Positions 32,957 to 37,967 of a DNA stretch of 41,907 bases are shown piece after piece. The DNA lies in assembly GCA_946548305.1 (NCBI GenBank), contig CAMNPQ010000002.1:1-41907 (forward strand). The letters are read 5' to 3'. The notes beneath the pieces are model-generated. The model did not search any database, had not been told where the DNA came from, and saw only the letters and a list, made by a program, of their open reading frames with translations. Numbering within the stretch: the first letter of the stretch is position 1; each line of letters opens with the position of its first letter. The position numbers were made by a program, and so were the translations under genes. Source of the stretch: an uncultured Pseudobutyrivibrio sp. (GTDB lineage Bacteria > Bacillota > Clostridia > Lachnospirales > Lachnospiraceae).

Positions 32957-34648
32957 ATGGTAAATTTAAAGGAAAAACCATTTTATTTAAATGATGAGCA
33001 AATTAAATGGGTGAATGAAACCCGAGATAAAATGTCAGATGATGAAAAGGCAGAGCAGCTGATGTGTCCTCTGATGTTTTCAGATGATGAAAATGTGTTA
33101 AAGGGGATAATTGCAGCTCACAATTTTGGCGCAGTTATGTTCAGAAGTGGCATTGCAGCAAAAGTACAAAGAAACCTTAATTCAATGCAAGAGGTTTCAA
33201 AAATTCCACTTCTAATTGCAGCAAACTTAGAAGAGGGTGGAATAGGTGTAGCAGCCGAAGGAACAACTATGGGTCGCCAAATGCTGGTGGCTGCCACAGA
33301 CAAAGAAGAAAGAGCATATCAGCTTGGAAAAATCTGTGGAAGAGAAGGTGGCGCACTGGGCTTTAACTGGTCATTTGCCCCTGTTCTTGATTTAGACATT
33401 AATTATCACAATCCTATTACGAATGTTCGTACATACGGTAGTGACACAGACCGCGTTATCCGCATGGGTAAAAACTACATCAAAGGCCTTACAGAAGAGG
33501 GGGTGGCTCCTTGCATCAAGCATTTTCCAGGTGATGGTGTAGATGAAAGAGATCAGCACCTTTTAACCTCAGTAAATGATTTAACTATAGAGGAGTGGGA
33601 AGAAACCTATGGTCGCATTTATCGCACAATGATAGAAGATGGTGCCCTCACAGCCATGGTGGGTCATATCGCCATGCCAGCAATGGAAGAGGCTGTTTCA
33701 GGAGAAAAATGCAATCAGGTTATACCAGCATCCTTGTCAAAAAACATTATGACAGGCTACTTGCGCAATAAACTGGGATTTAACGGACTTATTTCCACTG
33801 ATGCATCACCAATGGTAGGATTTTTATCCAATAGCAACAGACGTGAGGCTGTGCCTTTGTGTATTGAAAATGGAGCTGACATGCTTTTATTCAATAAGGA
33901 TGTGGATGAGGACATCATGTTCATGAAAGAGGGAATCAAAAATGGAATCCTCACCAGAGAAAGACTAGATGATGCTATCACCAGAATCCTTGCTACAAAG
34001 GCTGCACTAAAGCTTAATGAGAAAAAAGCTGATGGCAGTATATACAAAAATGAAGAGGACGCAAAAGTGGTAGGCTGCCAGGAACACTTAACATGGGCTA
34101 ATGAAACTGCCGACGAAGGCATCACCCTTGTAAAGAATCTGGAAAATGCTCTACCATTCACACCTGATAAATACAAAAAGGTTCTCCTTGAAATACTAGG
34201 TGAAGGAGACAACGAAGCTGTAAAAAAACAGGTAATGGAACGCCTTGAAAAGGAAGGTTTTAAGGTGACATTATACGTACCGGAAACCCCAGAAACCATA
34301 TTCCTAGATGGAAAGGTTGATGACTTCAAAGCAAAATATGACGCAGTTCTTTACATTAGTAATGTTGAAACCGCATCAAACAAGACTGTTGCCCGTATCA
34401 ACTGGCACACATTATTCGGAGCAGGAAACAATCTTCCATGGTTTGTGCGTGAAGTGCCTACCTTCTTCGTAAGCTTCGGCAATCCATATCACTTACTTGA
34501 TGCACCAATGATGAAGACATTTATAAACAGCTATTCCAATGCACCTCACGTAATTGACGCAACAATGGACAAACTGCTTGGAAAAAGCGAATTTAAAGGC
34601 ACATCACCAGTTGACGCCTTTTGCGGCAGATGGGACACCAGACTATAA
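32957..34648 (+). CDS. GH3 family, NagZ/beta-N-acetylhexosaminidase-like
   Basis: CIKHFPGDGVDERDQH, NGLISTDASP; no signal peptide; SD AAGGAG. Confidence 0.85.
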   Translation: MVNLKEKPFYLNDEQIKWVNETRDKMSDDEKAEQLMCPLMFSDDENVLKGIIAAHNFGAVMFRSGIAAKVQRNLNSMQEVSKIPLLIAANLEEGGIGVAAEGTTMGRQMLVAATDKEERAYQLGKICGREGGALGFNWSFAPVLDLDINYHNPITNVRTYGSDTDRVIRMGKNYIKGLTEEGVAPCIKHFPGDGVDERDQHLLTSVNDLTIEEWEETYGRIYRTMIEDGALTAMVGHIAMPAMEEAVSGEKCNQVIPASLSKNIMTGYLRNKLGFNGLISTDASPMVGFLSNSNRREAVPLCIENGADMLLFNKDVDEDIMFMKEGIKNGILTRERLDDAITRILATKAALKLNEKKADGSIYKNEEDAKVVGCQEHLTWANETADEGITLVKNLENALPFTPDKYKKVLLEILGEGDNEAVKKQVMERLEKEGFKVTLYVPETPETIFLDGKVDDFKAKYDAVLYISNVETASNKTVARINWHTLFGAGNNLPWFVREVPTFFVSFGNPYHLLDAPMMKTFINSYSNAPHVIDATMDKLLGKSEFKGTSPVDAFCGRWDTRL

Positions 34649-34707
34649 TCCACGTATTTCATGTGTCTTTTGCAGGTCTGTAAAGTTTGCAAAATGTATT
34701 TCTTAAA

Positions 34708-34990
34708 TGCGGACGTATAATACTTTGAGCAAATATTTTAAAGAATTTTTGCAGAATGCTTGGGTGATTTTGGAATGAACTTAGTAAAATCTTAAAACAG
34801 GTTTGTTGCTGTATAGGCAGCTGCCGCCAAGGACGGCGGCAGCAGTGGTCACTTGAAACACGATGTTGAATGTGCCACGGTGACTATACAGGACAAACCT
34901 GTTTTTAATTTTACTTAGTGAATGGAATATGAACCAAAGCATCTGCAATAAATTTTTAAAATATTTTTCTACACTTATATTACGTCCGCA
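34708..34990. repeat. ~283-bp imperfect palindrome with >100-nt arms, MITE-like or structured RNA
   Basis: Arms start/end TGCGGACGTA/TACGTCCGCA; shared AAATATTTTAAA, TTGCAG, TTAGTAAAAT, AAAACAGGTTTGT, CTGTATA blocks on both arms; apical hairpin GCTGCCGCC/GGCGGCAGC. Confidence 0.85.
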
Positions 34991-35048
34991 CTAGCCATAC
35001 TAGAGACTAGCTGATTATAGAGTGGAGAAAACTGGGGTCTTATTAAAT

Positions 35049-35113
35049 GTCGTATTTTAACAAAAAGAGGTCGTGTTTTGATACGTGATAAATTGTGAAT
35101 GTCGTGCTATATT
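35049..35113 (+). promoter_or_regulatory. Candidate GH78 promoter with phased direct repeats GTCGTnTTTT
   Basis: GTCGTATTTTAAC (35049), GTCGTGTTTTGAT (35070), GTCGTGCTATATT (35101); extended -10 TGCTATATT at 35105-35113. Confidence 0.5.
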
Positions 35114-35159
35114 GACATCATAGGAAACGTTGCATCAATATAAAGGAGATTTTAGATTT

Positions 35160-37967
35160 ATGAAGATAACCAGAGTAAAGCTTAATGGTATAGTGAATCC
35201 TATTGGATATGATTTTAGAACACTTTTAGTATCATGGAATGTGGAGGACACAGAGGCTTCTACATTAAAAAATGGCGTGCTTGAAGTGGCAGATGATATC
35301 GCATTTACGAATATTGTTTATAAAAAAGAGGGCGCTGATTTAGATCAGACTGGTGAGGAAATCCAGATAGAATTGGCTCCTAGAAAAAGGTATTACTTTA
35401 GGGTGAGCATTACTGGTGACAATGGCGAAAGTGCTGTTTCAGAGATTCAGTATTTTGAAACTGGAAAGATGGATGAGCCATGGACTGGAAAGTGGATTGC
35501 AGCAGCTGAAAAAGAGGACTTTCACCCTGTTTTTTCAAAGGAGCTAAATCTTAAAAATCAGATAAAGTCTGCCAGATTATATGTAAGCTGCCTGGGTGTG
35601 TTTGAAGCATATCTGGATGGTGAAAAGGTGGGGAATGAAATCCTTACACCATATATAAATGATTATGAGACTGGTATGCAGATTATCACATTTGATGTGT
35701 CTGAACAGTTGAAGCCTTCAAGCAAGCTGGATATTCAGGTGGCAAAGGGCTGGTACATGTCCAACTTTGGTCTGGATGGTGGCTACAATTATGGAGATAG
35801 AATGGAGGCTATTGCAGAGCTTCATGTCACCTATGAGGATGGCACTACAGAAGTGGTAGGTACCGATTCTACATGGCAGGTAGCAGCCTCTGATGTGACA
35901 GAGTCTGGCATTTACTATGGTGAAGATTTGGATAGAACAGCTGGCATCACACCTAAGGGAAATGCTGTTGAGGTAACAGGTGAAAGAAAGCTTTTAGATC
36001 GCTACAGCATACCTGTTGTTGTAAAAGAAGTTATTCCGGCAAAGGAGATTATCAAAACACCAGCTGGGGAGACTGTTATTGATTTTGGTCAAAACCATTG
36101 CGGTGTGATGGAATTTGATGCTGATTTTGAAGCCGGTACAGTGATAACCATCAACTGTGGTGAGGTATTGCAGCAGGGTAATTTTTATAACGAGAATTAT
36201 CGTGAGGCAAGGTCTAGCTTTGTATATACATCTGATGGCAGAAAAGAGACTGTTCATCCTAGATTTACTTTCTTTGGGTACAGGTATATCAAAATCTCTG
36301 GCTGGCCAGAAAATGTTAGCCTTACCCTTGATAAGGTACGCTCTAATGTTATTTATTCTGATATGGAGCGCACAGGATATATTGAGACAAGCAACAGCAA
36401 AATAAACAGACTGTATGAAAACTGTATATGGGGACAGAAATCTAATTTCTTAGATATGCCTACTGACTGCCCACAGAGAAATGAACGATTGGGCTGGACC
36501 GGTGATGCGCAGGTGTTCTCTCAGACAGCCAGCTACAACATGGATACAAGAGCTTTCTATAGGAAATTTTTGAGAGACTTGAACTATGACGCTAAACGAT
36601 ATGATGGTGCAATTTCAAGCTATATCCCTTCAAAGTGTGGTGCTAGTCTGGCTGGCACATCAAGTGTTTGGGGCGATGTGGGTACATTCGTGCCTAACGT
36701 GCTATACAATACCTTTGGCTCACTAAAGGATGTTAAAGAGCATTATGAGATGATGAAGAACTGGGTAGAGTTCATGCACAAAAATGATGTGGAGCATGGA
36801 GACAAAGGTCTATTTATCCTTCCATTCCAGTTTGGAGACTGGTTGGGGCTTGACGGTATCACCGAGCAAAGCTACAAGGGCGGCACAAATGACGATTACA
36901 TTGGGGCAGTATATTATTATCGTTCTACTGTCATTACCTCTGAAATGGCTGCTCGCCTTGGCAAAAATGATGATGCCAAGAAATACAAAGAGCTGTCTGA
37001 AAAAATCAAGAAGGGTATTTTAGATGAATATTTTTCTCCTACTGGCAGATTGGCTTGCGACACTCAGGCGGCATATATTGTGGCATTAGCCTTCGATATT
37101 TATATTGATAGAGAAAAGCTTATAGAGCAGTTTATTGACAGACTAAACAGAGATTGCTATCAGATAAAGTGCGGATTTGTAGGTGCTCCACTTTTATGTA
37201 CAACACTTGCCAAGTGCGGAAGGAGCGATTTGGCTTACCAGTTCTTGTTTAATGAGGGCTTCCCTAGCTGGTTGTACTGTGTAAATTTGGGGGCAACCAC
37301 TATTTGGGAAAGGTGGAATTCTCTGCTGGAGGATGGTTCAATTTCTGGAACAGGTATGAATTCTCTGAACCATTATTCTTATGGAACTATAGTACAGTTT
37401 ATGTATGAATATATAGGTGGAATTACAGCAGCTGAACCAGGATTTAAGGTGGCAAACATCAAGCCAGAGCCTTCTATGTACTTCAAGCATTTTAATACAT
37501 CAATGACTACTGCAGCAGGCTTATACATATCAAATTGGAAAATAGCCGAAGATGGTATGTTTACTATTGAAATAGAGGTTCCATTTAATGGAAAGGCAAA
37601 TGTTACACTGCCTAGATTTTCCAAGGAAAAATTGCAGGTAGTAGGCTGTGACACTGCTGCTATTTCAGATGATGGACAGCTTCAACTTACAAAGGGACAC
37701 TATGAAATCTCATACATGCCAAGTGTGGATTACAGATGTGTATATGGAGAAAACACAAGACTGTCTCAGCTGGAAAAGGATACAGAAGTAATGTCACTTT
37801 TACAGGAAAAACTCCCGGCAGCTTTTGGTGTAATAATGTCTCATGAGAAAGAAATGGGCAATCACACATTGGGTGAAATTCCATATCTATTCTTCATGGG
37901 CTTTTCTCCAGAACTGGTAAATCCTATAAATGAGAAAATTTTTGCTATGAAACGATATGATATCTAA
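35160..37967 (+). CDS. GH78 alpha-L-rhamnosidase
   Basis: Typical N-terminal domain, DMPTDCPQRNERLGWTGDAQVFSQTASYNMD, ATTIWERWNSLLEDG; SD AAGGAG. Confidence 0.93.
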   Translation: MKITRVKLNGIVNPIGYDFRTLLVSWNVEDTEASTLKNGVLEVADDIAFTNIVYKKEGADLDQTGEEIQIELAPRKRYYFRVSITGDNGESAVSEIQYFETGKMDEPWTGKWIAAAEKEDFHPVFSKELNLKNQIKSARLYVSCLGVFEAYLDGEKVGNEILTPYINDYETGMQIITFDVSEQLKPSSKLDIQVAKGWYMSNFGLDGGYNYGDRMEAIAELHVTYEDGTTEVVGTDSTWQVAASDVTESGIYYGEDLDRTAGITPKGNAVEVTGERKLLDRYSIPVVVKEVIPAKEIIKTPAGETVIDFGQNHCGVMEFDADFEAGTVITINCGEVLQQGNFYNENYREARSSFVYTSDGRKETVHPRFTFFGYRYIKISGWPENVSLTLDKVRSNVIYSDMERTGYIETSNSKINRLYENCIWGQKSNFLDMPTDCPQRNERLGWTGDAQVFSQTASYNMDTRAFYRKFLRDLNYDAKRYDGAISSYIPSKCGASLAGTSSVWGDVGTFVPNVLYNTFGSLKDVKEHYEMMKNWVEFMHKNDVEHGDKGLFILPFQFGDWLGLDGITEQSYKGGTNDDYIGAVYYYRSTVITSEMAARLGKNDDAKKYKELSEKIKKGILDEYFSPTGRLACDTQAAYIVALAFDIYIDREKLIEQFIDRLNRDCYQIKCGFVGAPLLCTTLAKCGRSDLAYQFLFNEGFPSWLYCVNLGATTIWERWNSLLEDGSISGTGMNSLNHYSYGTIVQFMYEYIGGITAAEPGFKVANIKPEPSMYFKHFNTSMTTAAGLYISNWKIAEDGMFTIEIEVPFNGKANVTLPRFSKEKLQVVGCDTAAISDDGQLQLTKGHYEISYMPSVDYRCVYGENTRLSQLEKDTEVMSLLQEKLPAAFGVIMSHEKEMGNHTLGEIPYLFFMGFSPELVNPINEKIFAMKRYDI

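Follow-up and report, generated by a model that had tools for sequence, protein, structure and literature searches.

A probable mobile palindrome with a TwoAYGGAY apex, truncated between a GH3 and a GH78 gene of an uncultured Pseudobutyrivibrio

RESULTS

The palindrome at 34708–34990 of the window (the whole stretch of 41,907 nt of uncultured Pseudobutyrivibrio DNA that was analysed) is best explained as a truncated, palindromic, non-autonomous MITE-like element of gut and rumen Lachnospiraceae that carries the TwoAYGGAY motif at its apex, an explanation to which, taken as a whole, we give a probability of roughly 0.8. Judged by the sequences of its members, the element family is very probably mobile; its intact copies are palindromes that lack an ORF and are bounded by short terminal inverted repeats (TIRs) and target duplications of 7–10 bp, and they lie in intergenic DNA in either orientation. 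What is new is the reassignment of an RNA family, a DNA-level signature of covariation and an association with csrA, whereas the window copy itself is an ordinary, decayed member.

Fold and boundaries of the palindrome

The palindrome sits between a GH3 gene (32957–34648) and a GH78 rhamnosidase gene (35130–37967), both on the + strand. A first-pass annotation of this DNA had described a near-palindrome of 283 bp, and its arms and coordinates were recovered by mechanical detection of inverted repeats, in which 34731–34771 pairs with 34926–34966 and 34787–34806 pairs with 34893–34912. In agreement with the rod and branched tip that had been claimed, the predicted fold of 34708–34990 is a single rod that branches in two at its tip. 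Its free energy is −116.8 kcal/mol for the + strand and −110.6 kcal/mol for the − strand (z −11.7 and −13.5, respectively), and none of 200 dinucleotide shuffles folded as well. No ORF of at least 100 aa occurs within 34708–34990, again as annotated. Positions 34708 and 34990 do not hold as the ends of the feature: on the left, related sequence runs on to ∼34655 (query positions 6–341 matched in a search with 34650–35050), and on the right the arm is truncated at 34990. The features of the site are as follows.

34649–35042, + strand: extra DNA relative to the empty site (approximate), reaching from the stop codon of GH3 to the block conserved upstream of GH78; comparison with G016 and G028
34655–34707, + strand: remnant of the 5′ outer arm (TATTTCATGTGTCTTTTGCAGGTCTGTA...), its 3′ partner lost; aligned in the own-genome copy on contig C9 and in the G022 copies
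34708–34990, + strand: near-palindrome, inner part of the element; inverted repeats and fold
34769–34929, + strand: TwoAYGGAY RNA motif (RF01731), apex of the element; cmscan, 68.6 bits, E 2.3e-11
34780–34784, + strand: CTTAG of the 5′ arm, facing the CTTAG of the 3′ arm (T·T mismatch inside the stem); sequence
34820–34843, + strand: apical hairpin 1, GCTGCCGCC-AAGGAC-GGCGGCAGC, with GGA intact at 34831–34833; sequence, fold and alignment
34845–34878, + strand: apical hairpin 2, loop ACGAT (34860–34864), lacking the GGA of the family consensus; sequence, fold and alignment
34914–34918, + strand: CTTAG of the 3′ arm; sequence

Identity of the apex

The earlier statement that the palindrome belongs to no known RNA class is wrong, because cmscan finds RF01731 at 34769–34929 with a score 25 bits above the curated gathering threshold of 43 bits. 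Two further Rfam families, CRISPR-DR64 and STnc410, scored below threshold here and are put down to chance. In place of the two AYGGAY loops that characterize RF01731, the window copy has AAGGAC (Y replaced by A) and ACGAT (no GGA). We base membership of RF01731 on descent and model score and claim it for the element family, judging the motif of the window to be degenerate rather than intact or functional.

In the passages that name it, TwoAYGGAY was listed by Weinberg in 2010 as a probable structured RNA without a cis-regulatory role (PMC2864571). In 2014 it was put forward, from its two GGA hairpin loops and without experiment, as a CsrA-binding sRNA (PMC4333381), and in 2025 it was still termed relatively unexplored (PMC12199142). 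Those passages make no mention of mobility. The type that Rfam assigns to RF01731 is Cis-reg.

The occupied and the empty site

Two relatives, G028 and G016, have GH78 genes that are 86 and 81% identical to that of the window, with GH3 upstream, and lack the palindrome. In G016 (L199), the GH3 stop is directly followed by ATGTCGTATTTTGACAAAAAGAGGTCGTG, which in the window begins only at ∼35043; the ∼394 bp from 34649 to 35042 are extra in the window lineage, and G016 therefore presents an empty site. In G028 (L198), an ordinary hairpin follows GH3 instead of the palindrome. Empty-site alleles, which the first-pass annotation had suggested looking for, thus exist at GH3–GH78 in both relatives.

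These empty sites lead us to reject cis-regulation of GH78. A role in cis, as regulatory leader or attenuator for GH78, would suit both the position in the GH3–GH78 gap, upstream of GH78, and the Rfam type, but it is highly improbable, as the palindrome is absent from relatives with so similar a GH78, copies elsewhere lie beside unrelated genes in every orientation, and the upstream block that is common to the GH78 genes of the relatives lies on the 3′ side of the element. Also decidedly unlikely is a REP-like use of the palindrome, as a strong bidirectional terminator or as an mRNA-stabilizing hairpin between GH3 and GH78. Its place directly behind the GH3 stop, where G028 has an ordinary hairpin, and the location of several copies in another genus (G227) just after terminator T-runs are what such a role would predict, but the palindrome is followed by no T-run on its 3′ side, G016 has no hairpin of any kind there in the sequence read, and termination would be a side effect of insertion rather than the reason for a family.

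As a truncated mobile element, the reading that we prefer, the window copy can be set against a full-size copy on contig C9 of its own genome, which, unlike the window copy, continues on both sides. Positions 34708 and 34990 are truncation points and not element ends, so that no target duplication is expected at 34707/34991, the points at which the first-pass annotation had placed the search for one and which are both internal to the element. The window copy has lost the second GGA loop and the outer arms, and is a truncated, decayed and probably inert remnant.

Further downstream, 35038–35090 of the window (GTCGTATTTTAACAAAAAGAGGTCGTGTTTTGATACGTGA) contains two spaced GTCG-TTTT direct repeats upstream of GH78. 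This block is conserved in G016, G028 and G002, also in places where another gene lies upstream, and looks like a putative operator or promoter of GH78.

Copy number and distribution

The element is multi-copy, in the own genome, in the genus and in other genera. The own genome has 4 copies (three besides that of the window), and within the genus 27 of 29 genomes have RF01731, at 1–49 copies each, the 49-copy genome being that of Pseudobutyrivibrio sp. MD2005. Across Lachnospiraceae, 35 of 200 sampled genomes carry it, often at 13 copies or more; beyond the family, within the order, RF01731 matches are weak only. Phage and plasmid collections gave no match to the element, even at distant sensitivity. 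The genes that flank 40 copies in MD2005 show no orientation bias (13 with both genes on the + strand, 13 with both on the − strand, 9 convergent, 4 divergent and 1 with one flank unread).

Divergent TwoAYGGAY pairs, with cores 170–300 bp apart, occur at L227, L228, L229, L230 and L231 in three genera, and a tandem pair with a period of 304 bp occurs at L232. A TPP riboswitch (L011, 251–347, − strand, 62.2 bits) and a T-box leader (L034, 128–370, − strand, 104.5 bits) each lie near a TwoAYGGAY copy as ordinary neighbours.

Ends and target duplications of intact copies

The anatomy of the element in MD2005 was read from 40 copies taken with their flanks. The palindrome extends far past the Rfam core, with most arms at ∼280–370 nt, spans of ∼600–800 bp and ∼89% Watson–Crick matching. 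In the best-preserved copies, the inverted-repeat ends are GTTACCATTCACAG...CTGTGAATGGTAAC, ∼610 bp apart; in this genome the GTTACCATTCACAG TIR pattern occurs 36 times at no more than one mismatch, with 0 occurrences for its reversed control. Exact 8-bp direct repeats flank the copies at L093 (TAGGGATT), L105 (AATAAATT), L112 (TCTTACTC) and L114 (AAAAATCC), and a 7-bp repeat, GAGCTGG, flanks that at L111. Target duplications of 7–8 bp are found in 5 of the 18 MD2005 copies with both ends, with 0.07 expected from random re-pairing of left and right flanks between copies. About half of the MD2005 copies are without clear TIRs, and the duplication is absent from most.

In two other genera (G174 and G227), the element is ∼300 bp long and has the TIR GGTGTCAAAAGGT. 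Duplications of at least 7 bp (7–10 bp) were found for 7 of 15 copies in the two genomes, the shuffled flanks giving a mean of 0.87 and a maximum of 4. Target duplications, sought as the first-pass annotation had advised, are thus present on the better-preserved copies in MD2005, G174 and G227, and its remark that the palindrome resembles a MITE is upheld by a family that is multi-copy, dispersed and ORF-less, with TIRs, target duplications and an empty site.

In G227, shorter palindromes without the TwoAYGGAY apex also occur between GGTGTCAAAAGGT ends; they share their apex sequence, and this shortened type recurs at several sites. Because these core-less copies carry the same ends, the TwoAYGGAY core appears to be dispensable for mobility. 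A natural deletion series is seen at L263–L274 of this genome, where apex-deleted palindromes share ends and arms at TIR spacings of ∼48, 54, 81, 134 and 178 bp (289 bp with the core), several of them directly behind terminators.

The TIRs, target duplications, empty site and orientation-free spread, together with a pairing that is symmetric between strands, would equally be expected of a purely selfish palindromic MITE in which the GGA loops are DNA hairpins recognized by the transposase and are unrelated to CsrA. We hold this for a real possibility at somewhat less than even odds: the core-less G227 copies, with the same ends and apex sequence, suggest that the core is unneeded for movement, and the csrA association described below would then be a phylogenetic coincidence.

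None of the unpaired GTTACCATTCACAG sites in MD2005 is flanked by a transposase, a TIR search of MD2005, G227, G174 and the genus found no autonomous partner, and no facing GGTGTCAAAAGGT pair 1–3 kb apart was seen in G227 or G174. IS256-type transposases were rejected as the mover, their co-occurrence with TwoAYGGAY being negative (5 of 35 genomes). At L171 and L196 of MD2005, isolated GTTACCATTCACAG ends are bordered by a further repeat family (GTCAAAAAGGTATAACC/GGTTATACCTTTTGG units).

Pairing between the arms

In an alignment of 20 Pseudobutyrivibrio copies, 95.1% of the cells of the consensus structure pair. Changes on both sides are found at 53 of 67 pairs, a number that 0 of 500 shuffles reach and that falls to 11–21 with the partners slid. 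Double changes outnumber single-sided wobble changes by 184 to 11, and G·U occupies just 19 of ∼1,300 cells, counts that cover related copies and are hence not independent. The MD2005 arms contain G·U and A·C at 154 and 140, respectively, whereas terminator hairpins in the same DNA, under the same scoring, contain 16 and 3 (Fisher p = 0.008). Among the 432 pairs of 47 distinct versions of hairpin 1, 421 are Watson–Crick, one is G·U and none is A·C.

Similarity over the outer 45 nt of the arms, which are GC-rich, is 89% between the two arms of a single copy and 63% between arms taken from different copies. The closest relative of an arm is its own opposite arm in 26 of 30 copies, in a comparison that was anchored, since the arms differ by indels and fixed coordinates are uninformative. 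At L078, L083, L103 and L109, the inverted repeat extends to the stop codon of the neighbouring gene.

The few wobbles and the closeness of each arm to its own partner argue for arm copying at the DNA level rather than RNA selection, and on this sequence evidence the arms are probably kept complementary by DNA-level homogenization. Such homogenization would be incomplete, because conserved differences between the arms persist (e.g. CTTAG facing CTTAG, found again in both arms of most copies). The first-pass annotation had taken the imperfect but length-matched arms as a sign that pairing is maintained; the double changes agree with this, but there is no preference for wobble pairs, and the pairing taken alone does not demonstrate a functional RNA rod. 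In the parts of the literature that deal with it, template switching is known for hairpins and for inverted-repeat homogenization, in which arms are rewritten from each other (PMC8794818, PMC8604942).

Association with csrA

All 20 aligned Pseudobutyrivibrio copies keep the GGA of hairpin 1, though the stem of this hairpin varies. The GGA of hairpin 2 is lost in 12 of the same 20, which is odd for a two-site CsrA ligand; in other genera, most copies have GGA in both loops. csrA is present in 34 of 35 TwoAYGGAY genomes versus 108 of 200 overall (odds ratio 42, p = 1.8e-9, a statistic that ignores kinship), the single exception being G219, and the own genome carries csrA. It is not the case that csrA genomes are simply richer in mobile DNA, because IS256-type transposases, taken as a control, show no link with csrA (odds ratio 0.66, p = 0.17). 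As a caveat to this association, csrA tracks motile lineages. The co-occurrence and the invariant GGA support, at the level of genome comparison, the published CsrA-binding proposal, and that intact copies might act as CsrA decoys is a plausible if tentative suggestion.

A second, longer csrA-like gene was observed in two genera (L234, G000:C211, 1405–1740; L233, G094:C54, 977–1264), flanked by flagellin and by a divergent tyrosine recombinase of ∼200 aa. The tyrosine recombinase at L233 has a TwoAYGGAY copy immediately behind it.

A link to CsrA is also what a conventional trans-acting sRNA gene, a CsrA sponge, would show, its copies being gene duplications and its mobility incidental. The invariant GGA loop of hairpin 1 and the csrA co-occurrence fit such a gene, as do the divergent core pairs in G036, G138 and G089, arranged as if for outward transcription, and the published accounts of RF01731, where they name it, define it as a structured RNA (PMC2864571) and propose it as a CsrA-binding sRNA (PMC4333381). 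TIRs and target duplications speak against it, as do a palindrome that reaches far past the RNA core, arms and a hairpin 1 without wobble preference, unlike the terminators in the same DNA, the lack of orientation bias and the core-less copies that share the ends; we consider it unlikely.

DISCUSSION

For the truncated mobile element that we favour, the following mechanism is proposed. A DDE-type transposase, which we infer, would move the element in trans, and complementarity would come mainly from template switching in DNA synthesis, by which one arm is rewritten from the other. Read-through transcription would turn the apex into RNA, the GGA hairpin loops of which could bind CsrA, and intact copies would jointly serve as CsrA decoys. 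In its fullest form, TwoAYGGAY would be a transposon-borne CsrA decoy that spreads only in csrA-bearing Lachnospiraceae, disperses CsrA-binding hairpins over the genome and tunes Csr by copy number (up to ∼49), with covariation that stems largely from DNA arm-to-arm copying. This combined proposal we regard as doubtful. Were it true, Clostridia would have in TwoAYGGAY their first CsrA-antagonizing RNA, and arm-to-arm DNA copying rather than RNA selection would account for most of the textbook covariation.

On this reading, an Rfam family of 2010 whose function was unexplained turns from a ‘probable RNA’ into the tip of a mobile palindrome, for which boundaries, target duplications and an empty site are described here. 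The co-occurrence with csrA gives independent support to the CsrA-binding proposal, which can be assayed in culture, for instance in Pseudobutyrivibrio sp. MD2005. There is also a caution in it, as strong covariation, which is usually taken to prove that an RNA is functional, is found here with almost no wobble intermediates, in a DNA palindrome the arms of which appear to be rewritten from each other.

Comparison with known systems

Bacterial MITEs and palindromic intergenic repeats (REP, ERIC, Correia/NEMIS) are short, ORF-less, dispersed, intergenic and wholly foldable, with inverted ends and target duplications. The TwoAYGGAY element is likewise dispersed, ORF-less, intergenic and foldable, with inverted ends and target duplications, but its palindrome is much longer (up to ∼600–800 bp), its outer arms are copy-specific yet self-complementary, and its conserved apex is RNA-like, with GGA loops. 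A search of the literature for Lachnospiraceae MITEs found nothing relevant.

With RF01731 as described, the window feature shares two apical hairpins on a long stem and the GGA of hairpin 1 (AAGGAC), but its hairpin 2 is without GGA, and what was described as an RNA of unknown function here caps a mobile palindrome that has terminal repeats and target duplications. As in hairpins maintained by template switching, the stem arms change together with few single-sided intermediates; the difference is that here tens of copies of a mobile palindrome are concerned, with arms that in several reach up to neighbouring stop codons.

CsrA-sequestering sRNAs of the CsrB/RsmZ type were described, as of 2014, from Gammaproteobacteria only, according to the part of that account that treats them (PMC4333381). 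TwoAYGGAY resembles them in its hairpin-loop GGA and in being almost confined to csrA-bearing genomes. It differs in that it is known here from sequence alone, that its pairing is symmetric at the DNA level, and that it offers one or two sites per copy in many dispersed copies carried on a transposable element.
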